A stretch of 64,000 nt of DNA from Roseibaca calidilacus (lineage in GTDB: Bacteria > Pseudomonadota > Alphaproteobacteria > Rhodobacterales > Rhodobacteraceae), in NCBI RefSeq assembly GCF_001517585.1, contig NZ_FBYC01000004.1, positions 372,001 to 436,000 of the forward strand, given 5' to 3'. Both the position numbers and the translations under genes were made by a program. Shown here piece after piece: positions 6,963-16,232 of the stretch (position 1 is its first letter; every line of letters begins with the position of its first letter). The notes beneath the pieces were generated by a model. It made no database searches. It was given only the letters and a program-made list of their open reading frames with translations, and was not told the origin of the DNA.

Positions 6963-7391
6963 ATGGGCGAATTGGAACTTGCCGCCATTCTTTGCACCTT
7001 TCTTGGCGGCAGCGAAGCCGAAACGCGCAAGTATTTCGACACTTACGAGATGACGCGTCATATCCGGGTGGATTGCGAAACCGATTCTCATGTGATCGAG
7101 GTCGCACTTGATGGAACCTCCTCGGCGCGCGACAGCGTGCATCAGGCGCTATTTGCCGCGCATCTGACCGGCAAGGAACCCACCGTCATCATGATAGACA
7201 GGGACGGCTATGTCGGCCGCTTCGAATATGAAATGCGCCCTGTCACCAGAGCCGCCGGAGTGACTTATATTCGCTGCGCGAAAGATGTGATCCTGCGATG
7301 GGCGGCCACCTCTGGGCTGCGTGACATACCGCGTGATCCCACCGCCGATGACATTGTACTGGTACTTACCATTCTGCACTGGCACCAATGA
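6963..7391 (+). pseudogene. Unknown protein gene, 3' end displaced by the Mu-type element
   Basis: An open frame of 142 codons of unknown family (MGELELAAILCTFLGG at the start). Only the first 137 codons are host sequence: the element's left end is at 7375, so the final residues LHWHQ are read from element DNA. Removing the element and one CATTC copy joins position 7374 to 16162 and gives a 160-residue frame ending at a TGA at 16230-16232. The protein is soluble-looking, has no motif I recognise, and carries the CtrA-like site just upstream. Whether the truncated product still works is unknown. Confidence 0.7.
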
Positions 7392-7402
7392 AACTGCACT
7401 GA
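7370..7402 (+). repeat. Left element end: target duplication copy plus terminal MuA-type site
   Basis: CATTC (7370-7374) is followed by a terminal TG at 7375 and then the end repeat, whose core ATGAAACTGCA starts 13 bases in (7388-7398). The 18 bp at 7381-7398 match the other end in inverted orientation without mismatch. Only one copy is seen on this side; I found no second copy in the next 75 bases. By analogy with Mu this is where the transposase binds and cuts. The 66 bases from 7402 to 7467 hold no gene that I can see. Confidence 0.75.
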
Positions 7403-7467
7403 GGTGGCCGGGATTATCTTGGACGTGATGGCATCTGGTGGGACTGGATGCCGTTTTCGAACGCCGG

Positions 7468-7839
7468 TTACAGGCCGTTTAACTGCCGGTTGAGGGTGCG
7501 TTTCAGACCGCCGATCCGGTGCGCGTAGCGATGCAGACCACTGCGGCTTGGAGCCTTGTCACCGAAGCGCGCGCGACATTCTTCGGCCAGCGCGCTGAAG
7601 GTCATCGTGCCGATCCGGGCATTGACGAACGCCAGAACCTCCGCATTCCGCATGGCCATAGGCATTGCTCCACCCTTCCGGGGGAGGCTGACCAGCGTGG
7701 CGCGGATGCGATCTTCGCCCCAGGCATCGGAGCCGAAGCGGGCCGCACATTCCTGGGCGATTTCAGCATGGCAAAGGCCAGCGGGCTGAACGATCAGCCA
7801 ACTGGCAATCTCCATGTCCCTCGCGCCGAAGGTGGGCAT
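7468..7839 (-). CDS. Unknown element protein with two internal HTH-like repeats
   Basis: A 123-residue protein, last gene before the element's left end. It appears to be a tandem duplication: residues ~8-50 (ending in IAQECAARFG plus RIRATL) and ~65-110 (ending in LAEECRARFG plus LHRYAHRI) share the pattern A-x-E-C-x-A-R-F-G followed by a basic helix, suggesting two helix-turn-helix-like units. The ATG at 7839 follows the protease stop directly (TGACATG), so it belongs to the same operon. No family is recognised; a DNA-binding role is inferred from the shape only. Confidence 0.65.
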   Translation of the reverse strand: MPTFGARDMEIASWLIVQPAGLCHAEIAQECAARFGSDAWGEDRIRATLVSLPRKGGAMPMAMRNAEVLAFVNARIGTMTFSALAEECRARFGDKAPSRSGLHRYAHRIGGLKRTLNRQLNGL

Positions 7840-7840
7840 G

Positions 7841-8824
7841 TCAGCCGCCTTCGCGCTGAAGCGTCTTGCGGAACGCCTCTTGCGACACGCCCAGGCGCGA
7901 CAGGATTTCCTGTTCATCACCCGTCCCGCCGCTGGTCATGAGGGCCAGCTCTTGCCGGTCACGGGGTAGACCGCGCCCCGCGATCTGACTGCCGGGGGTC
8001 AGAACCGGCACCATCTGGCGGGCGAACTCGTCAAACCGTTCCGGGTTTTCACGGCAAAGGGCGAGGCCCCATTCGCGCAGGTAGGGCGGCAACTTGCCCG
8101 AGGTGATTGCGCCATCCACGGCGGCAAGCGCCTTGCCTTCGGCTTCGCGCGCCCGTGCCCGGTTCAGTTCAAGCGCCAGCTCCATCGTGCCGCCATCCGT
8201 CTCCTGACGTTGCTGCGACGGCTCCGGCGCAGGCTCGCTTTCACGATTGACCAGGGCCGACACCGCTTGCAGCAACGCGTCATCCGCGATGTCCTCCGGC
8301 AAGGCCAGCATCTGGATGAGCTGCCCGCGCAGATCAGCCGCCGCCAGTTCGGGCGGATCAGCCGGTGGGTTTTCCTGACTGGCGAGCGCAGTGAGTTGAA
8401 GGTTGGGGTTGTTCGTCAACGCGGCGCGGTGAAGGCGCATGATTTCTCCTGTGGTCTTGTGGAACGTGAAGACAGGGCTGAGGAACCGGTACTCCTTGCT
8501 GGCAAGATGCTGGCGCGCCTTGTCGGTCCATTCGACACGTCCCCAGATGCCCTGGGCATCGGCCTTCAGTTCCTTGATCCAGCCCGCCGCCGGAGCGGGC
8601 TGGCCGTTTTTGGTGGCGTGGTCGATCTGGTGTTCATAATCGACCGGCAAATCCATGCCGAGCTTGCGGGTCGCAGCGATGATGTCGGCGGCATCGCGCA
8701 CCATGTAAGGGCCGCGCCCATCGCGCCCGTTGAAGGTGCCGAGAGGCAGAAGGTGAACCCAGTCTTGCGCCTGGCCGGATGTGGCCAGCTCGACAGACCA
8801 GGCGGACTGGTGAATGGAAGTCAT
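7841..8824 (-). CDS. Mu gpI-like phage protease with scaffold domain
   Basis: A 327-residue protein of the Mu I protease/scaffold type. The N-terminal half has the family pattern LLPLGTFNGRDGRGPY near residue 25, DLPVDYEHQ near residue 55 and SKEYRFLSPVF near residue 105, followed by a Glu/Ala-rich helical tail like a scaffold. In Mu this protein is needed for capsid assembly and maturation. ATG at 8824 overlaps the gpG stop by 4 bases. In Mu, I is upstream of T; here it is downstream of T and G. Confidence 0.85.
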   Translation of the reverse strand: MTSIHQSAWSVELATSGQAQDWVHLLPLGTFNGRDGRGPYMVRDAADIIAATRKLGMDLPVDYEHQIDHATKNGQPAPAAGWIKELKADAQGIWGRVEWTDKARQHLASKEYRFLSPVFTFHKTTGEIMRLHRAALTNNPNLQLTALASQENPPADPPELAAADLRGQLIQMLALPEDIADDALLQAVSALVNRESEPAPEPSQQRQETDGGTMELALELNRARAREAEGKALAAVDGAITSGKLPPYLREWGLALCRENPERFDEFARQMVPVLTPGSQIAGRGLPRDRQELALMTSGGTGDEQEILSRLGVSQEAFRKTLQREGG

Positions 8825-9438
8825 CGGCGAAGCCCTTCTGTGATGTGGTCGTTGACGATGCGCCCGATTTCCTGCCGGTTTTCCTCGTTCAATCCGAGGA
8901 AGGGACGCGCGGGAATTGTGACCTGACGGCCCCGGCCCGCTTGTCCGCCCATCTGGTGAATGCGCGCATAGGCGCGGTTCGTCCCGACCGCGACTTGCGA
9001 ATGCGAGGCGCTGTAGCTCAGGGAGCCATAGAGGTGACCACGGTCGCGCAACTTCTTTGCCCCGGCACCGCGCCGCAAAAGGGTGGCGGTGGAATGGCCC
9101 GCCCATCCGGTTCCATCCGGGGCGGTTTCGCTTTCGAAATTGCTTTCGACCTCAGACTGAAGATAGCTGCCGATTTCCTGGAACACCGACTGCATGTTGG
9201 AGCCGCGTTCCGCAAGGCGTTGCAGCGCAGCCATGAAGCCGTCTCTATCGACCACCTGGATAATCATCTGACGGTCGCCCTGGGCGATGCGCCCCAGTTC
9301 GACCAGGCCACCCGCAACATCGCCTCCTATGGCACCGGCTTCAACATTGCGGCCGCCCCGACCGGCTTGGCTTGCACCGCGCCGCGCCCCGCCGCCCGCC
9401 ATCGCCCGCAGAACGACACCCAAGATCGGCCCTGCCAT
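8821..9438 (-). CDS. Mu gpG-like virion morphogenesis protein with N-terminal extension
   Basis: A 205-residue protein. From residue 58 on (MIIQVVDRDGFMAAL, then RRGAGAKKLRDRGHLYGSL and IPARPFLGL near the end) it fits the phage virion morphogenesis/tail completion family of Mu gpG. The first 57 residues are Gly/Ala/Arg-rich and not part of that domain. A strong AAGGGGG Shine-Dalgarno 7 bases before the ATG at 9438 supports the long start; the internal ATG at 9267 has only weak pairing. It follows gpT by 12 bases. Confidence 0.8.
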   Translation of the reverse strand: MAGPILGVVLRAMAGGGARRGASQAGRGGRNVEAGAIGGDVAGGLVELGRIAQGDRQMIIQVVDRDGFMAALQRLAERGSNMQSVFQEIGSYLQSEVESNFESETAPDGTGWAGHSTATLLRRGAGAKKLRDRGHLYGSLSYSASHSQVAVGTNRAYARIHQMGGQAGRGRQVTIPARPFLGLNEENRQEIGRIVNDHITEGLRR

Positions 9439-9450
9439 GGCGTATCCCCC

Positions 9451-10368
9451 TTATGCTGCCAGATGCGACGTGACGATCAGCTTGGCGCTGTCTGCCCATT
9501 CGTTGGTCACGGCAACATGCTGCCCGCCCACCTCGACGATGGTGGAGCCGTTCTTCAGAAGCCGAAGCGCCGCACCTTCCAGTTCCGGCGGAACAACCAG
9601 GGCCGTGGGGCGCACGTTCAGAAGCTGGCCGTGATCCCCGCGCAGGGTCATCATCGCCGTGCGGGCCGCTTCGTAATTGTCCTTGGTCAGATCGGCTTTG
9701 CTGGCATAGGCCAGTTGCCACAGGCCGAACCCGGCATTGACGCGCGCCCGTACCCCGTAGATGTATTCGTCGCGCATGAACACATGCTCATCGTTGTCGC
9801 GGTCCAGGGCGGTGAACTTGTAGGGCACACGCTCCTGCCAGATGATCGGACGCACTGCGCGGCTCAGATCGAGAAGATACCAGGCAGGACCACTGCCCGC
9901 CTGCATGTTCGAAACACTGACCTCTTCGCCCTGGGCATTCGTGCCCAGGTGATCGGTATCGAAGAAATATTGACCATCATAGCAAGCCGTGCTGAAGCCG
10001 TTGGCCAGAAGGCGGAATACCAGCTCGTTGGGATGGTCGCGCGCTTCGCGGCCCATTTCCGAGATCATCGGCCCGAAGACACCATAGGTGTCATCTTCGA
10101 GAGCATCACGCGGCACGGCGATGGTGCTTTCGAACTTGCGGTTCTTGATGCGCCAGTCATGCACCGACAGGTTGCGGATGACGCGATCACCAATCCACTC
10201 GCGCAGGCGCGGGAAGCTGCCCAGCCATCCGTAGATTTCTTCGGCGTTCGAACTGGGCACCCGCATGGTGATCTCTTCAAAGTGGCTTGGCGCATTGTCG
10301 AACGCCTCGTTGAAGACGGTCTGGAAGCCACGGAAGACGGTGGAAAGGTTTCCGGAATTGACGATCAT
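9451..10368 (-). CDS. Mu gpT-like major capsid protein
   Basis: A 305-residue protein of the Mu-like prophage major head subunit (gpT) family. Features of the family: the start MIVNSGNLSTVFRGFQTVFN, EIYGWLGSFPRLREWIGDR near residue 45, FFDTDHLG in the middle, and a C-terminal LNVRPTALVVPPELEGAA segment. Length is that of intact gpT. It should build the HK97-fold capsid shell. It overlaps the Mor-like gene by 4 bases, which places a structural gene directly in the regulator's operon. Confidence 0.9.
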   Translation of the reverse strand: MIVNSGNLSTVFRGFQTVFNEAFDNAPSHFEEITMRVPSSNAEEIYGWLGSFPRLREWIGDRVIRNLSVHDWRIKNRKFESTIAVPRDALEDDTYGVFGPMISEMGREARDHPNELVFRLLANGFSTACYDGQYFFDTDHLGTNAQGEEVSVSNMQAGSGPAWYLLDLSRAVRPIIWQERVPYKFTALDRDNDEHVFMRDEYIYGVRARVNAGFGLWQLAYASKADLTKDNYEAARTAMMTLRGDHGQLLNVRPTALVVPPELEGAALRLLKNGSTIVEVGGQHVAVTNEWADSAKLIVTSHLAA

Positions 10369-10853
10369 TGCTCGAACTTCTCTTTCGATTTGGGGTTCTG
10401 GGGGCGATGCGGCAGGGCAACGCCCGCTTCACGCATGGTGCAGATGGTACGGCGCGCGGTTCTGCGGCTGACGCGCGTCAGCTTTGCGATTTCGACCGTG
10501 CTGAGGGTGGTGTTGACGATCAGGCGACGGATACGGATAGCCTGCGCATTCTTGCTCGACATGGCCCCGTGCGGGACTTCGACTGCACCGCTTCCATATT
10601 TGGTGATCAGCCATTCCAGCACATCCCGACCAACCAGCTTGCTCACGGGATGGTCATCGGTGGCCTTCAGCGGAACGAACAATTCTCCGCCGCCGAAGTT
10701 CTCAAGGAAGAGGCGGGCGGCATGCTCCCCGAACCGCTCAGCAAGCTCGACCTCCATGTACGTGACATAGAGACCGAGCTTTCGCCTTTCGGCGATGGAA
10801 GGGTATTCGTTGGAAAGCACTGGTGCCGCCCGCCTCGCTTGCATGATCATCAA
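10365..10853 (-). CDS. Mor/C-like transcriptional activator
   Basis: A protein of up to 162 residues. The middle has the paired FGGGELFVPL and YGSGAVEVPHG motifs that resemble the dimer segments of Mu Mor/C proteins, and the C-terminal half has a helix-turn-helix (LSTVEIAKLTRVSRRTARR). In Mu, Mor activates the middle promoter and sits after gemA, as here. The start could be later than 10853 (for example the internal Met at residue 4 or 33). Assignment to Mor is by motif pattern and position. Confidence 0.6.
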   Translation of the reverse strand: MMIMQARRAAPVLSNEYPSIAERRKLGLYVTYMEVELAERFGEHAARLFLENFGGGELFVPLKATDDHPVSKLVGRDVLEWLITKYGSGAVEVPHGAMSSKNAQAIRIRRLIVNTTLSTVEIAKLTRVSRRTARRTICTMREAGVALPHRPQNPKSKEKFEQ

Positions 10854-10962
10854 TGCAGGCGACGCTATCCGGACGTATGTCCCTGATCACCCCGGACAGC
10901 GTTCCGGTTATCGTGCTGTGGGTGAATGAAGGTTGCCCCGGACTGGACTGGGCGGCGGCGGG

Positions 10963-11157
10963 TCAACTGCCGCCGCTTTCCTTTTCCCGGCGCTCCTGAA
11001 GTGCGACCAGCGCCGCGCGCAAGCCTTCCAGGGCGGGCAACAGGAAGAACTTGCAAAACAGCCCCACCAAGACCCATGCAAGCATCAGCGCCGCGAACGC
11101 AATCCCGAGAAGCGCGCCGATGCCGAAGAACAGTAAAAAGGGTCCGAAGGCTTCCAT
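10963..11157 (-). CDS. Small membrane protein, unknown
   Basis: A 64-residue protein with a long hydrophobic stretch (residues ~5-40, possibly two short helices) and a charged C-terminal helix (LQERREKESGGS). It is the first gene after the gemA terminator. Position and size would suit a holin or other lysis protein, but no endolysin gene accompanies it, so I leave it unnamed. The ~110 bases between it and the Mor-like gene show no clear gene. Confidence 0.5.
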   Translation of the reverse strand: MEAFGPFLLFFGIGALLGIAFAALMLAWVLVGLFCKFFLLPALEGLRAALVALQERREKESGGS

Positions 11158-11251
11158 CTGTGATCTTTCTGTCAGCGGTCAGGATAGGCGGAACACGGCG
11201 CGCATTTCAATGCCCATCGAAGGCCGCACCCAAAACGCCCCACAGACCCCC

Positions 11252-11278
11252 CTTAAACGCGTTTAACAGGCGTTTAAG
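11252..11278. promoter_or_regulatory. Dyad operator-like cluster upstream of the capsid operon
   Basis: CTTAAACG, CGTTTAAC and CGTTTAAG occur at 11252, 11260 and 11271. The first two form a perfect 14-bp palindrome (11253-11266), and the first and third form an 8-bp inverted repeat. The cluster lies between the gemA terminator and the small membrane protein gene, where a middle promoter with an activator site would be expected. Which protein binds is not shown; the Mor-like product is the obvious candidate. Confidence 0.45.
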
Positions 11279-11346
11279 AAATTTCTGGCGGTGAGGGGTG
11301 CCGAGAGACAGGAAGCCGCTCAGCGGGCCGCTGAGGGGCTTGGAGC

Positions 11347-11376
11347 AAAAAAGGGGCGATGCCGCGCACCGCCCCC
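11347..11376 (-). terminator. Rho-independent terminator after gemA
   Basis: On the minus strand the sequence forms a stem GGGGCG / CGCCCC with an 11-base loop, followed directly by six T residues. It starts about 26 bases after the gemA stop, so it would end the early (transposition) operon and separate it from the capsid operon. Confidence 0.75.
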
Positions 11377-11401
11377 TTCAACGTTTGTCGCGCCGCGCAG
11401 G

Positions 11402-11815
11402 TCATGCGGCCTTGTCGCGGGCCTTCATCTTCTTCAGGGCGGTGATCACCTTGCGCGCGTCGTGGGCCGTCACGAAGCGCAGGCTGGACATGCCGAAGTA
11501 CCGTTCCAGCCAGACCGACAGACCGTCTTCAACATCGGCACCTGACCACTCCTTCCAGATCGTCCTGATCAGTTCGAGCTGGGCGAAGCTGGCCATGCCT
11601 TCCCGCGCGCCATAGTCCGGCCCCTTGGCGGTCAACGGCTTGAAGCCCAGATATTCGAACAAGCCCATGAGCGCCGTGAACCCGTCCTGGTCGAGCTCCG
11701 TCACGGAAGTGACCCCGCAAAGATCGACCAGGCCAGACCGGAACTCCGCTTCGGTCAGCCCCAGCTTGCTCTTGGCCACATGGATAAGGGCGATCTGTTT
11801 GTTACTGATCGACAT
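11402..11815 (-). CDS. gemA: GemA-like regulatory protein (Mu gp16, DUF1018)
   Basis: A 137-residue protein starting MSISNKQIALIHVAKSKLGL, then the LTEAEFRSGL and LGFKPL blocks typical of the GemA family. In Mu, GemA changes expression of host genes and affects DNA topology; it is encoded in the early region, as here. The gene overlaps the preceding small gene by 14 bases, and a terminator follows it. Confidence 0.85.
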   Translation of the reverse strand: MSISNKQIALIHVAKSKLGLTEAEFRSGLVDLCGVTSVTELDQDGFTALMGLFEYLGFKPLTAKGPDYGAREGMASFAQLELIRTIWKEWSGADVEDGLSVWLERYFGMSSLRFVTAHDARKVITALKKMKARDKAA

Positions 11816-12116
11816 TGCCGGCCTCCTTTCCGTTGCGCGTGGTGGCGCTGATCAGATCCACGATCTGCTTGTGCATGCCTTCAAGATCGGCCTGGACGCG
11901 CACGCCCATCTCCGCGCCCGCCTTCGCGGCGGCGCTGATCATGTCGATCTTGTGCGAGTGGCGCGGGGAAACCTCGAGTTCGGTCACCAGGTCATCCAGC
12001 AGCTTCAGGAGCGCCGCCAGAGACCCCACGTCCGCGATTGCGTCATTGGATGCCATGTAAAGGCCGTCGCGGCACAGGGTCAGCGTTGCCTTGGGGTTTT
12101 CAGAAGAAGTGATCAT
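11802..12116 (-). CDS. Small early-region element protein
   Basis: A 104-residue protein without a motif I recognise; predicted mostly helical (LAALLKLLDDLVTELE, then KIDMISAAAKAGAEMG). It overlaps the upstream gene by 4 bases (ATGA) and gemA by 14, so it is part of a tightly packed early operon. Similar short genes of unknown function occupy this position in Mu and its relatives. Confidence 0.65.
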   Translation of the reverse strand: MITSSENPKATLTLCRDGLYMASNDAIADVGSLAALLKLLDDLVTELEVSPRHSHKIDMISAAAKAGAEMGVRVQADLEGMHKQIVDLISATTRNGKEAGNVDQ

Positions 12117-12448
12117 TGGACAATTCCTTCAGGCAGGACAGGGATGAACTTCGAGCGGGCAAGAATGCCCCGAACAATGGTGAGCGCGCCAAGAGTGGCT
12201 GAGATGTCAGCAGACAAAAGCGCAGCGCCCGCTTCGGTTTCTTCGTCCGCTCCGCCTTCATTTGCGGCATCCCATTCGCTGATGAGTTCACGTAGCCGGA
12301 AAAGGGTGCCCTGCGCCCCAGCAAGAGCGGTCTGAAGCTGCGCAAGCTCATCGGCCGTCAATGGCGTGACAAGCAGGTCGCGCCCGGCAAAGTCTTGCGC
12401 CTCCTCAGGTGTGAGCTCGTCTTTCACATTCAGTTGGTGGTTTTGCAT
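12113..12448 (-). CDS. Small early-region element protein
   Basis: A 111-residue acidic protein (start MQNHQLNVKDEL). Predicted helical, with EEAQDFAGRDLLVTPLTADE near the start. It starts in a TGATG overlap with the muB stop, which argues for translational coupling and against the longer upstream frame. No family recognised. Confidence 0.6.
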   Translation of the reverse strand: MQNHQLNVKDELTPEEAQDFAGRDLLVTPLTADELAQLQTALAGAQGTLFRLRELISEWDAANEGGADEETEAGAALLSADISATLGALTIVRGILARSKFIPVLPEGIVQ

Positions 12449-13221
12449 CAGATATCTCCCATCATGAAAATTGCGTTCTCGATTTCGTTCAGCGTCACAG
12501 GCTTTCCCGCCGCAAGCATCCGTGCTTGCCGGTAGGCTTTGACCATCAACCGGAAATTGCCTTGGGTTTCGCCATGCCGCGCCAGTGCAGCCGCAGCCGA
12601 ATTGTCGGTGGGGCAAAGTGCAGCGGCCAGGGCCTCGAACTCATCCCGGCTGGGCGCGGGAAGAACGCGCCTAACGTCGATCCTTGTCAGGAACTGGTCG
12701 TAGTCCATTTCCTTTTTGCGCCCGGTGCGGCCCAAGAACTGCTTGTTTCCGCAGAAGACCATTCCGAAGGCTGGATGAAAGCGATCTCCCTCGCGGGCCT
12801 TATCACCATCGTCATAGAGGCGACGGAGCGTTTCCAGCACATTGACCTTCAGGCCCTGGGCCTCATCAATTACAAGGACGGTGGGTCGGCGACCTTCCTG
12901 GAAGGGATAGCTGCCCAGCAAGCCGGCAAGCGCCTGAACGGCTTCGCGTGTGCGCCCTTCGTAGACATTGAAATGCTCCAGGAGCGCCGATGTGAAGGCA
13001 AGAATGGAGCCGTCGATTTCCGGGCTCGACCGAAGGTAAATCACTCGGATTTCACGTTCCCATTCGGTTACCAGCCCCTTAAGGGTCCGGGTCTTGCCAA
13101 TCCCCACAGGGCCTTTGATGATCCCAATTCCCGCCGTTAGCGCGATCTGTCGGACGACAAACTTTATCGTTTCGCTCGCCTCCGTTTCGATGATAGGTGT
13201 ATGCTCAGGTGTGTGATGCAT
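12448..13221 (-). CDS. MuB-like AAA+ ATPase, transposition target DNA activator
   Basis: A 257-residue AAA ATPase. Walker A GPVGIGKT is at 37-44 and Walker B VLVIDEAQ at 115-122. It is directly downstream of the transposase (35-base gap), as B follows A in Mu. MuB binds target DNA, stimulates the transposase and gives target immunity. It is shorter than Mu B (312), and resembles the TniB/ExeA-type versions found in many Mu-like phages. Confidence 0.88.
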   Translation of the reverse strand: MHHTPEHTPIIETEASETIKFVVRQIALTAGIGIIKGPVGIGKTRTLKGLVTEWEREIRVIYLRSSPEIDGSILAFTSALLEHFNVYEGRTREAVQALAGLLGSYPFQEGRRPTVLVIDEAQGLKVNVLETLRRLYDDGDKAREGDRFHPAFGMVFCGNKQFLGRTGRKKEMDYDQFLTRIDVRRVLPAPSRDEFEALAAALCPTDNSAAAALARHGETQGNFRLMVKAYRQARMLAAGKPVTLNEIENAIFMMGDI

Positions 13222-13256
13222 GCTTCATCTCCGTTGTGCTGCACATTGTTGAAGGG

Positions 13257-15269
13257 TCAGCGGTTGCCGCCGCTGGCCTTTCTAGTCTGGCCGTCCACTT
13301 CATTGGCTTGGGCCATGATTTCCTTCCATCTCTTGCTTTCGGCCTCCTTCTCCATCGCTTCGCGGGCAATTCGAGCTTCAGGTTCCTCACCGGCCAGGCG
13401 CATGATGATGCCCGGCTGCTCCTGACCAGGGCTGAAGGCCGTTGTGTTGCGTGTGAGCTCTTCGAAGCCATCGAAGCCCGGCGTGAGCTGCGCTTCGAGC
13501 TCCCGGATAGCGCCCTTGTGCTCCTTAATGCGCCGCCCTGCTTCTTCCGCGCCCCGCCTGTCCTGTGTATCGTAGGCCTGATCGGGGTTTGCTTCGCCGC
13601 AGGGTATGCCATTGCGCCGGATGAACACATGGTCCACGCCAGTGCGCAGGGGCGCGCGCACCTCGACAGGAGTACGATAACCCAGTTTCCCGATCAGCTC
13701 AGAGGTGTATTGTGCGTTTCGAAAGTCGATGCGCCCCTGTTTCACAAAGCGCGTATGACGTTCGCTGAAGATTTCGTCGAAGCTGCGCGCATCAGTGCGT
13801 TGTGGCTCCCAGCCATTTGCTATCGCCGCCTCGAAGGCTTCTCGCGGCGAGCGGCCTTCCAGCTTCCCGCCTTCCTGCGGAGTGTCGTTATAGGTCGCGA
13901 TTGCCTTCTGGATCAGCGCCGCCAGTTCTTCCAGGGTGCCTTGGAATGGCTGAACCGGCTTACCGACTTGCTGCGTTTTCTTGTTGCTACGATCCCCGCC
14001 TATCCAGCCTGGAAGGAACCTGAAGTAGTTCTGTTCGAGTATCCTGAAGGTGCCCTCAATGGGCTTTGCAGCACCATTGTACGGCTGGGCACGGATATGG
14101 CCGCGACCAGATATCAAGCCTGACAGTTCTGGGAAATCCGCGATAGCCTTGGCTACATCGTTATACTCACCGCCATTGTCGAAGTAGAAGGTCACGGGCA
14201 ATCCGCCACCCTGCTCGCTGACCACCAAATCGTAGAGGCTATCGGCGATGTCGGTTTTTCGAACACCGGTTCCCGGGCCGAATGCGGCGAGCTTGCCCCA
14301 GATGAACCGGGTGGCATCGTCCATCCAGGCAATCAAGCGCAGGCGAAGCTGACGCTTCGGGTTGTCAGGTAGCCGCATGTCAATGTCGATCGGGTGAACA
14401 TCGCCGAAAACAACATCCATGGGCTTATCAGACAGCTTCCGGAGTATCCGGGGCTTGTCGCGGTCATCCCATGCCTTGTTATCGTGGCGGAAGCGATCAA
14501 CACGCCGGAACTCATCGAACCGGGACGCCCACTTCTTGGTCAGGGCGCAAATCGCGGTCAGCTTCTGCCGGGAAAGCTGCGATCCATGCTTCTTCGACAG
14601 TTCGGCCAGCTTCTGGCCGCACTGCCGTGCGACGGTCCGCGTTGACCAGCCCGCCGCCGTCCCGTCCCGGCCATACTGCTCCAGCTCTGAAGCGACGGTC
14701 GCCCGTGCCGTGTTGTCCAGGTCGATTTCGGCATCCCATCGCCGAGAAATCAGCACTCGGCGCGCGCCCCGAACGGGCGAGGCCTTCGGGACAAGGCCGG
14801 AAAGGCCCTTTTCCTCATAGGCATCAAGCCAAATCCGCGCCGTGCGCTCAGAAACCGTCTTTGCCGCGCCGTTGCGGTCGCGATGGGTGCATTTGGCAAT
14901 CTGCTTGAGCGCCTGAGCGCGTTCAGAGCTCCTTGGTGTGGTGTTTATCGCCGGGCTGATGACATGCAGCCGGAACTTCGCCTCTTCGCGCTGCCATTCA
15001 GCGATCTCACCATGGGAAAGCCGGTCGAACGGCGCTCGCAAGGGAAGATCGAGGGATTTCGCCCGCTCTTGCATCTCAGCGGGAAGGCTGGACAGCGCGA
15101 CAAGGTATTGCCTGCCGCCAGCGCCACCCTGGCCACTGGTGGCAAGAACCTCAAGTTGGCAACCTTGGAATACCTCACCCTTCGATGCTTCCCCAAGGAT
15201 GCGCCTTGCGTGCCGCGCGGAAAGGCCGCTAACGTCCGAAAAGGCGTTGGCATCCATAAAGGCGTTCAT
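13257..15269 (-). CDS. MuA-like DDE transposase
   Basis: A 670-residue transposase, close to Mu A in length. The N-terminal ~80 residues look like the winged-helix start (LSARHARRILGEAS, then GGRQYLVALSSLP), followed by a DNA-binding region, then the catalytic core with Asp290 (VVFGDVHPI), Asp364 (FYFDNGGEYN) and Glu405 (KPIEGTFR). All three catalytic residues are present and no frameshift or stop interrupts it, so the enzyme looks functional. ATG at 15269 overlaps the Ner-like stop by 4 bases. Confidence 0.93.
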   Translation of the reverse strand: MNAFMDANAFSDVSGLSARHARRILGEASKGEVFQGCQLEVLATSGQGGAGGRQYLVALSSLPAEMQERAKSLDLPLRAPFDRLSHGEIAEWQREEAKFRLHVISPAINTTPRSSERAQALKQIAKCTHRDRNGAAKTVSERTARIWLDAYEEKGLSGLVPKASPVRGARRVLISRRWDAEIDLDNTARATVASELEQYGRDGTAAGWSTRTVARQCGQKLAELSKKHGSQLSRQKLTAICALTKKWASRFDEFRRVDRFRHDNKAWDDRDKPRILRKLSDKPMDVVFGDVHPIDIDMRLPDNPKRQLRLRLIAWMDDATRFIWGKLAAFGPGTGVRKTDIADSLYDLVVSEQGGGLPVTFYFDNGGEYNDVAKAIADFPELSGLISGRGHIRAQPYNGAAKPIEGTFRILEQNYFRFLPGWIGGDRSNKKTQQVGKPVQPFQGTLEELAALIQKAIATYNDTPQEGGKLEGRSPREAFEAAIANGWEPQRTDARSFDEIFSERHTRFVKQGRIDFRNAQYTSELIGKLGYRTPVEVRAPLRTGVDHVFIRRNGIPCGEANPDQAYDTQDRRGAEEAGRRIKEHKGAIRELEAQLTPGFDGFEELTRNTTAFSPGQEQPGIIMRLAGEEPEARIAREAMEKEAESKRWKEIMAQANEVDGQTRKASGGNR

Positions 15270-15478
15270 TTTTCGAAACCTGAGGCTTTGAGAATTTGTT
15301 CGACAAGCGCACTTGCCTTCGGTCCTTGCCACTGCCCGATCAGCGCTTTCCGTGCATTCTGATGGTTCACACCGTGACTTTTGCACCACTGGTGGAGGCT
15401 GCTTCCTTGAGCGGTGAATGCGCCGCGTACCGCATTATACCGTTCCGTCAGTTCGGTTGGTGTGCTAGCCTGTGACAT
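15266..15478 (-). CDS. Ner-like small DNA-binding protein
   Basis: A 70-residue protein, first gene of the early operon and divergent from the repressor, the place of ner in Mu. The segment SLHQWCKSHGVNHQNARKAL has the pattern of a helix-turn-helix. AGGAG lies 7 bases before the ATG. Ner in Mu turns down the early and repressor promoters; the role here is inferred by position and size. Confidence 0.65.
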   Translation of the reverse strand: MSQASTPTELTERYNAVRGAFTAQGSSLHQWCKSHGVNHQNARKALIGQWQGPKASALVEQILKASGFEK

Positions 15479-15527
15479 ACTTCGCTCCTAGTGTGGAGCA
15501 ATATGCACCAAACTTGGAGTATGCGCA
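15479..15527. promoter_or_regulatory. Divergent repressor/early operator region
   Basis: The 49 bases between the repressor and the Ner-like gene hold two small dyads: GCTCC-N6-GGAGC (15484-15499) and CCAA-AC-TTGG (15508-15517), plus repeated GGAG-type words. Both Shine-Dalgarno sequences lie inside these repeats, so a bound repressor could block both genes. Compactness suggests the promoters overlap the coding starts. Confidence 0.5.
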
Positions 15528-15968
15528 ATGGGTAATGACGTTTGGAGCGAGGGCTTTCGTCAGAGGCTTGATTTGATCAGGGAAGAGCGCGGCATCTCCA
15601 AGGCTGAGATGGCCCGTCTGTGCGGCCTACCGCCGCGAACCCTCGAAAACTACTTCAAGGGTCACAAGCCGGGCATAGATGCGCTGATGGCCCTTTCAAT
15701 CGGTTTGGATGTCTCGGTGGATTGGCTGCTCGGTGACGAAGAATGGCACCGAACAGACCACGCGGACATAGTTTCGCAAGCGGTCTGGCAGGCGGTGCGC
15801 GAGTATCTTTGTGATATGGTCCGAGACACTTCATCAGGGAAACCGGTCATCGACCAGGGCAAGATTTATGGAAGCGAGCCCGAAGCGTTCGCAATGCGCA
15901 TCGCGAATAACGCCACCCAGAAGTATCGCGCCTTGCTCTCGCTCCACGATCCCCGGAAGCCGAACTAG
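15528..15968 (+). CDS. XRE-family element repressor (c-like)
   Basis: A 146-residue protein with an N-terminal helix-turn-helix of the XRE/Cro type (REERGISKAEMARLCGLP, residues ~17-34, then RTLENYFKG) and a C-terminal part of unknown fold. It is the only element gene on the plus strand and diverges from the early operon, as the Mu c repressor does. GGAG precedes the ATG. Confidence 0.82.
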   Translation: MGNDVWSEGFRQRLDLIREERGISKAEMARLCGLPPRTLENYFKGHKPGIDALMALSIGLDVSVDWLLGDEEWHRTDHADIVSQAVWQAVREYLCDMVRDTSSGKPVIDQGKIYGSEPEAFAMRIANNATQKYRALLSLHDPRKPN

Positions 15969-16103
15969 GCCGCATGGCCGCAAGTGGTTAAACCCGCGCC
16001 ACTTAGCTCAATAAATCAATGACTTACAAAACAAGGGTATCCAATGCATTGCGGACACGTTCGCGCACTATAAGCCCTTTATTTTCAAAGCTTTAGGTAA
16101 GTG

Positions 16104-16156
16104 TCGTTGCAGTTTCATTGGTGCCGCTCGTTGCAGTTTCATAAGTTCCGCTTCAA
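16104..16156 (-). repeat. Repressor-side element end with two abutting end repeats
   Basis: Read inward from the terminus on the minus strand, two 24-bp units follow each other; each contains ATGAAACTGCAACGA preceded by GCGG. On the plus strand the exact 15-bp repeat is at 16104-16118 and 16128-16142. The inner unit matches the left end over 18 bp. The outermost bases TGAAGCGG recall the terminus of Mu's right end, from memory of the Mu sequence. CATTC at 16157-16161 is the second target-duplication copy. Confidence 0.75.
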
Positions 16157-16232
16157 CATTCCACAAGATGGCAACAGTGCCGCGCGCTGTGATCTTGGAG
16201 CATTGGTGCAAGACGACACGCCACGTTTTTGA
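16157..16232 (+). pseudogene. Displaced 3' end of the gene at 6963
   Basis: After the second CATTC copy, joining 7374 to 16162 gives 23 further codons (P-Q-D-G-N at the start, T-P-R-F at the end) and a TGA at 16230-16232. This is the predicted original C-terminus of the unknown protein. Support is the target duplication and the open frame; 23 open codons alone would be weak evidence. Confidence 0.55.

Follow-up and report, generated by a model that had tools for sequence, protein, structure and literature searches.

A compact Mu-type transposable element with its own capsid lineage, probably a phage satellite

Is a small Mu-type element with readable ends and intact genes what is left of a larger prophage, or a unit in its own right? 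A stretch of 64,000 nucleotides from Roseibaca calidilacus (contig NZ_FBYC01000004.1, positions 372,001 to 436,000; hereafter the window) raises this question through an 8.8-kb element that we call E1. E1 has moved as one unit of 8.8 kb with a MuA-type end on either side, and it encodes transposition, immunity and late-activator genes together with a partial head kit of capsid, protease/scaffold and gpG. As judged from related loci, E1 is a member of a recurrent architecture with its own capsid lineage rather than a one-off remnant of a full-length prophage. We consider it likely that E1 is a transposable phage satellite, which would make its own head and borrow portal, motor, tail and lysis functions from Mu-like helper phages.

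The ends of E1 were defined against E3, a third copy of the element found in another genus, and against relatives in which the site is empty. Homology between E1 and E3 extends to 7355 and 16155, and the flanks diverge outside these positions. In three relatives of the genus (loci L263, L265 and L266), homologous sequence is continuous across the E1 joint. A 4-bp duplication flanks the TG...CA ends, ACAT in E1 and TCAG in E3. E1 combines a MuA/MuB transposition module with TG...CA ends and a short target duplication.

7355-16155, minus strand, 8,801 bp: whole element E1, with the early genes towards 16155; bounds set by the E3 comparison, the TG/CA termini, the duplication of 4 bp and the empty site
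7351-7354, no strand: target site duplication ACAT, right-end side
16156-16159, no strand: target site duplication ACAT, left-end side
7355-7398, no strand: right (cargo-side) end, terminal and subterminal inverted repeats
16104-16155, no strand: left (repressor-side) end, two abutting repeats
6963-7354, plus strand, with a residual 3' end at 16160-16232: host gene cut by E1, no assigned function; three relatives align over the full length of the joined flanks

The insertion removes the last codons of this small host gene, which lies upstream of a UvrD-type helicase gene. An earlier, sequence-only reading had placed the element at 7375-16156 with CATTC as its target duplication. The element is real but these positions are wrong, and 7355 and 16155 are best supported; the CATTC copy at 7370-7374 is internal to the element and recurs in E3, whose other flank has no matching copy. 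The 18-bp perfect inverted repeat described at 7381-7398 and 16108-16125 was confirmed, as was a second, abutting end repeat on the repressor side, at 16128-16151. A count of terminal matches alone favours the 7375-type end for both E1 and E3 (16/22, against 14/22 at 7355); we accepted 7355 and 16155 because the E1/E3 comparison and the empty site decide. With edges set by hand from the repeats, the joint score for TG/CA termini and duplication reached at least 8.5 in 13 of 15 loci when each was paired with its own edges, against none of 210 cross-pairings. When the pair was chosen by termini only, a duplication of at least 4 bp accompanied it in 8 of the 15 loci; for E1, E3, L025, L253 and L256 the duplication emerges only under joint scoring. 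L252 has merely a doubtful 4-bp match within a terminator-like repeat, and no convincing duplication was found at L250 or L251.

Thirteen proteins are encoded by E1; E2 in the list is a second copy in the same genome.

15528-15968, plus strand: helix-turn-helix (HTH) repressor (PF01381 E=2.9e-10, phrog_8)
15266-15478, minus strand: Ner-like small DNA-binding protein (phrog_15281, unknown function, E=1.2e-12; phrog_925, HTH, E=0.0011)
13257-15266, minus strand: MuA-type transposase, type I of two types seen (phrog_310 E=4.7e-45)
12448-13221, minus strand: MuB-type ATPase (phrog_296 E=4.7e-32; MuB C-terminal PF09077 E=7.7e-5, below cut-off)
12113-12448, minus strand: open reading frame (ORF) of 111 amino acids (aa), no family, not found in E2
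11802-12116, minus strand: ORF of 104 aa, no family, common to E1-E3
11402-11815, minus strand: GemA (PF06252 E=8.9e-21)
10963-11157, minus strand: putative membrane protein of 64 aa, common to E1-E3, hydrophobic by reading only
10365-10850, minus strand: Mor/C-type late transcription activator (phrog_836 E=6.5e-14; Pfam Mor only E=0.046)
9451-10368, minus strand: gpT major capsid protein (PF10124 E=2.1e-123)
8821-9438, minus strand: gpG-like virion morphogenesis protein (PF05069 E=4.5e-34, phrog_26 E=1e-38)
7841-8824, minus strand: gpI head maturation protease with scaffold region (PF10123 E=9.3e-67, phrog_328 E=2.2e-75)
7468-7839, minus strand: X, C-terminal domain like Mu gp27 small terminase (phrog_426 E=0.0047 and PF11985 E=0.028, both weak; profile-profile 94.3%)

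The frames of the transposase, ATPase, repressor, Ner-like protein and GemA are open, as had been noted before; that list was right for these five genes and overlooked the late activator, gpT, gpG, gpI and X. The capsid, protease and gpG frames are likewise intact. No integrase family was found among the Pfam and PHROG profile matches of the 13 proteins.

Profiles for Portal, F, Sheath, gpP and the large terminase (TerL) had no match within E1. The TerL profile, built from ORFs directly upstream of portals, matches 114 of the 137 loci with a portal and none of the 34 without one. In phage KS10 the portal and terminase genes lie apart from the capsid genes (PMC2628397), and because such an arrangement makes absence within 10 kb no proof, we relied on bounded elements and on genome-wide portal searches. 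The Mu portal family PF06074 was not found anywhere in the genome that holds the window. It is lacking in 8 of 11 other element-bearing genomes tested and present in 2 of 2 ordinary Mu-like control hosts; the three tested element-bearing genomes that have it include Maritimibacter, whose prophage has the usual gene order. By its gene content, E1 has one of the traits of a satellite: it is a mobile element without the genes needed for a complete particle.

As a satellite, E1 would replicate by transposition when a Mu-like helper grows, and its own activator would switch on its head genes. The capsid and the protease/scaffold would assemble a head, perhaps a small one, and X would direct the helper's large terminase onto element DNA, while portal, terminase motor, tail and lysis would come from the helper. 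The particle would bring the element into a new cell, where it would transpose into a near-random site. The same genes could be read as a transposable anti-phage element that is not packaged, its capsid, scaffold and terminase-like proteins poisoning the assembly of incoming Mu-like phages and so protecting the host. We consider this unlikely, since a transposition module, a protease and a terminase-like gene exceed the needs of interference, and a PADLOC scan for defence families over 10 of the 13 proteins gave only weak HTH and ATPase matches. In its favour, the parts could mix into helper heads, some satellites lower or abolish helper reproduction (PMC11389934), and vehicles other than its own particle could explain the spread between genera.

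The satellite reading gains from the recurrence of the element. A search with the E1 gpT of 394 genomes of the window's family gave matches in 58; 32 regions were fetched, three of them from a genus search, which brings the number of these genomes covered, the window's own included, to 27. Other loci came from a search of 84,980 species (best 80 of 346) and from viral contigs (best 80 of at least 598). The sample is centred on the E1 lineage because all loci were drawn with the E1 gpT. At least 17 loci match all of Rep, MuA, MuB, GemA, T, I and X and none of portal, F and TerL, with a gene matched in two pieces in four of the 17 (L242, L245, L248, L251). The 12 loci with matching termini and duplication measure 7,951-8,892 bp, and relatives also occur under the names Agrobacterium, Methylococcaceae, Arenimonas and others. 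Other copies of the 8.8-kb unit were thus found; they repeat its gene set, are close to it in size and sit in different flanks, which supports the earlier view of a complete small Mu-type element.

The head genes of these loci form a lineage of their own. Rows were assigned to the portal-free class from gene context before tree building, and 17 rows with truncated gene context (U) were dropped after the first tree. A single split of the gpT+gpI tree separates 26 portal-free from 45 portal-bearing rows (support 95/97, in 97% of bootstrap trees). This tree took 26 of the 31 listed portal-free rows, L014, L028, L137, L240 and L251 being without a long enough T or I ORF; L005 (a near-copy), L238, L243, L244 and L246 had been left off the list, and the 45 portal rows were sampled. 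With gpI alone, 28 portal-free rows also separate from 55 sampled portal-bearing rows (SH-aLRT 92, a quick method). With gpT only, the first tree placed 13 of 15 portal-free rows on one branch, and the careful tree placed 29 of 31 there (99/97) plus one long portal row. Purifying selection acts on gpT: between E1 and E3, its ratio of non-synonymous to synonymous change (dN/dS) is 0.048, from 15 changes in total. The corresponding values are 0.071 (activator), 0.143 (I) and 0.197 (X).

One rival view is that E1 arose by deletion from an ordinary Mu-like prophage, still moves through its surviving ends and transposase and carries the head genes as passengers; on this evidence that view is very unlikely and largely refuted. 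The same architecture and size occur in many genomes with diverged sequences, the head genes are their own lineage, and T is under strong purifying selection. A simple deletion would not yield the gene order, which is T-G-I in the elements and usually Portal-F-(G)-I-T, and the same cargo is found on two MuA types without a mutual blastp match. Such an origin would agree with the recognised gene families, all Mu-like, and with the decayed copies that are known (L240, L242-L244, L255, L260). A full-length Mu-like prophage at the E1 site, which would have made E1 a one-off deletion, was not seen in the three genus relatives examined; there the site is empty. The earlier statement that about three quarters of a phage is missing is misleading, as the elements have their own gpT+gpI lineage and a gene order that is not the usual one. 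One genome (G434, loci L242-L244) has three near-full-length gpT genes and two gpT fragments, and its elements appear at least partly decayed.

The genome that holds the window has exactly two gpT matches, E1 and E2.

L005 7755-16293 (G000:C1:77755-86293), 8,539 bp: E2, second copy, same genome
L012:4156-13020: E3, third copy, Maritimibacter sp. HL-12

E2 and E1 have 4,723 bases of cargo in common at 99.2% identity, and differ in MuA, MuB, the repressor and both ends. E2 is flanked by a 5-bp duplication and lies inside an interrupted gene, which we take to be D-cysteine desulfhydrase-like. The stretches replaced between E1 and E2 make one continuous piece only when the two ends are brought together, a hint that the exchange may have passed through a form with joined ends. 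E3 is ~95% identical to E1 over 7.8 kb; the two do not align in the repressor/Ner region (window 15138-16104 versus L012) and are mostly ~95% identical in the rest, and from this lack of alignment they are probably heteroimmune. The MuA proteins of E1 and E2 both match phrog_310, yet have no blastp match to each other. Type I (E1, E3, L253, L256) goes with a 4-bp duplication, the L253 and L256 pairs resting on joint scoring, and type II (E2, L025, L231, L245, L247, L249, L257, L259) with a 5-bp duplication where one was found; L252, with its doubtful match only, is also type II. In viral contigs, the E2 MuA has 12 relatives at 24-30% identity and no relatives of the E1 MuA were found. Three exact matches to the E1 end motif in viral contigs were taken as chance because they have no blastn or tblastn similarity to E1 or to reference proteins. 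E3 and the element at L025:4001-12488 differ in MuA type and come from separate genomes, and each lies ~75 bp upstream of a similar gene, presumably an imuB-like DNA polymerase gene, whose products are 61% identical; the site is possibly a preferred target, or the placement a coincidence.

Further modules were found in portal-free relatives.

L015:3896-5146, L028:2730-3779 and L137:4636-5667: tyrosine integrases
L014:11407-13368, L020:10941-13502, L021:12231-14129, L095:6729-8951 and L137:11038-13230: tape-measure-like gene near the capsid genes

L015 additionally has a Mor-type activator and an AAA ATPase. Sheath and gpP profiles had no match at the five loci with a tape-measure-like gene.

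X is a predicted small-terminase-like protein that may redirect packaging. Its C-terminal domain matches the Mu gp27 small terminase profile (83 rows from portal loci; hhalign 94.3%, E=1.1e-7), and X reaches at most 1.5% against the profiles of the late activator, Ner, GemA and the repressor. The iterated X and terminase profiles have 16 of 40 X matches in common, and rows matched by both were given to the better-scoring profile. The integrase-bearing L015 and L028 carry clear gp27-type proteins (PF11985 E=3.2e-10 and 8.4e-11). A structure model of X from 22 sequences (mean pLDDT 69.6) has residues 1-22 below 50 and a helical C-terminal domain, residues 61-110, at 82-97; we counted it neither for nor against the terminase reading. 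In gpI, the protease part and the C-terminus are constant in length and the stretch between them is shorter in portal-free rows, with a median of 89 against 127 aa. A scaffold change is plausible because the KS10 scaffold gene sits in frame inside the protease gene (PMC2628397).

Dependence of the element on Mu-like helper phages is weakly suggested by the distribution of Mu-type portal genes: of the 18 element-bearing genomes in the family sample 6 have one, against 44 of the remaining 376 (Fisher p=0.017, kinship ignored). A Mu-like prophage is present in the genome of E3, where its gpT is ~43% identical to that of the element, and in G435. Several observations nevertheless weigh against the satellite reading. 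The 18 genomes are those seen among the 27 of 58 gpT-matching genomes covered and include the start genome and truncated copies, the remaining 31 gpT-matching genomes were counted as element-free, and 12 of the 18 are without a Mu portal. No helper phage was identified, and the window's genome has no Mu-type portal, its sole PF04860 match being an HK97-type portal. Packaging-site-like DNA common to E3 and its resident prophage was not seen, the matches being short and weak and mostly in flanks or the gpT gene. A scaffold stretch of at most 100 aa, present in 20 of 23 portal-free rows, also occurs in 16 of 142 portal rows, among them the prophages of three element-bearing genomes (L180 94, L182 93, L235 99 aa); because these candidate helper prophages share it, a head smaller than the helper's stays a conjecture. 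G and MuA are less conserved between E1 and E3 (dN/dS 0.58 and 0.39), and the family has the decayed members listed above. As proof of a single origin, gpT alone was rejected: without the long portal row, L241, its 27-row clade is almost unsupported, and S needs 2 changes, with 1 change in just 4% of bootstrap trees. We used the gpI and gpT+gpI trees instead because gpT is too weak in this respect.

A head-only transfer particle that pairs, in place of a Mu-like phage, with some other tailed machinery in the cell, for example a gene transfer agent, is scarcely probable, for although the window's genome has one HK97-type portal gene and no Mu-type portal, relatives occur under the varied names given above, and it is doubtful that such a portal would join a gpT head because the portal and capsid families differ. 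The HK97-type portal gene (L274, G000:C4:1120126-1121118) is perhaps part of a gene transfer agent cluster.

E1 belongs to a widespread and apparently undescribed lineage. We propose tentatively that it could be a new satellite class, joining Mu-type transposition to a minimal head kit of capsid, scaffold-protease and terminase-like X. It would be an old lineage across Proteobacteria, its capsid cassette coupled to two MuA types and, in relatives, to integrases. The near-constant 8-9 kb would be one small headful, and each small particle would therefore carry one element and little host DNA. A search of the open-access literature, with subscription papers and most preprints outside its scope, returned no Mu-type or transposing satellite, in line with the sequence-only reading, which knew of no described counterpart. 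Mu-like elements with head genes occur in more than 130 bacterial genera (PMC5488378), and the lists in that paper may include elements of the E1 kind without singling them out. Among 50,697 phage records the E1 gpT had 215 matches, all below 60% identity, and the best full-length one among the matches listed reached 49%. Of the 30 matching records listed, 27 are of 36-57 kb and three are shorter (18.8, 20.8 and 26.7 kb). The 20.8-kb record, a Pasteurella phage, was rejected as a known counterpart as it has portal, sheath and tape measure; the other two are unannotated.

A satellite lineage built on replicative transposition, if true, would broaden the picture of satellites, explain some small Mu-like 'remnants' otherwise dismissed as degraded prophages and provide a natural system in which to ask how heads are built from one capsid family. 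Module swapping in transposable phages also becomes directly testable, since a single genome has near-identical cargo with transposase, repressor and both ends exchanged around it. To our knowledge, known satellites have not been described as moving by replicative transposition. P4-like satellites and phage-inducible chromosomal islands (PICIs) use integrases, and integrase-type mobility is a defining feature of capsid-forming PICIs (cf-PICIs); E1, with MuA/MuB and no integrase, falls outside the latter definition and differs from the former by DDE transposition. Mu-like phages of the RC1, KS10, B3, D3112 and RcapMu type have in common with E1 the repressor/Ner switch, MuA/MuB, GemA, a Mor/C-type activator, gpT, gpI, gpG and transposon ends. 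E1 differs from them in its 8.8 kb, in having no portal, TerL or tail that we could find and in its distinct gpT+gpI lineage.

The helper-dependent elements in a 2024 review are P4-like, PICI, cf-PICI, PLE, PICMI, VEIME and tycheposon (PMC11389934). Like E1, cf-PICIs are chromosomal and have their own capsid and protease, and their capsids form their own clades within phage capsids (PMC11389934). Unlike E1, they encode a portal, connectors and the two subunits of the terminase, and tails are all that they need from elsewhere (PMC10690885). In E1 neither a portal nor a large terminase was found, Mu-type genes for transposition and control make up half of the element, and the capsid is a Mu gpT. 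P4-like satellites and PICIs are small helper-dependent islands, as E1 would be, and some encode a small terminase that redirects packaging; they use the helper's capsid protein, whereas E1 encodes a capsid (PMC10690885 for the known satellites). Two relatives with integrases, L015 and L028, have a layout similar to theirs. AH14a and AH14b of Pseudomonas sp. ANT_H14 are a proposed, co-induced helper-satellite pair, in which the satellite, unlike E1, is 16.8 kb, has no structural genes and uses the helper's capsid (PMC4936722). The Mulch and Flayer satellite phages of Streptomyces differ from E1 in having both terminases and a portal and in lacking key replication genes; with E1 they would share a satellite-encoded head (PMC10690885).

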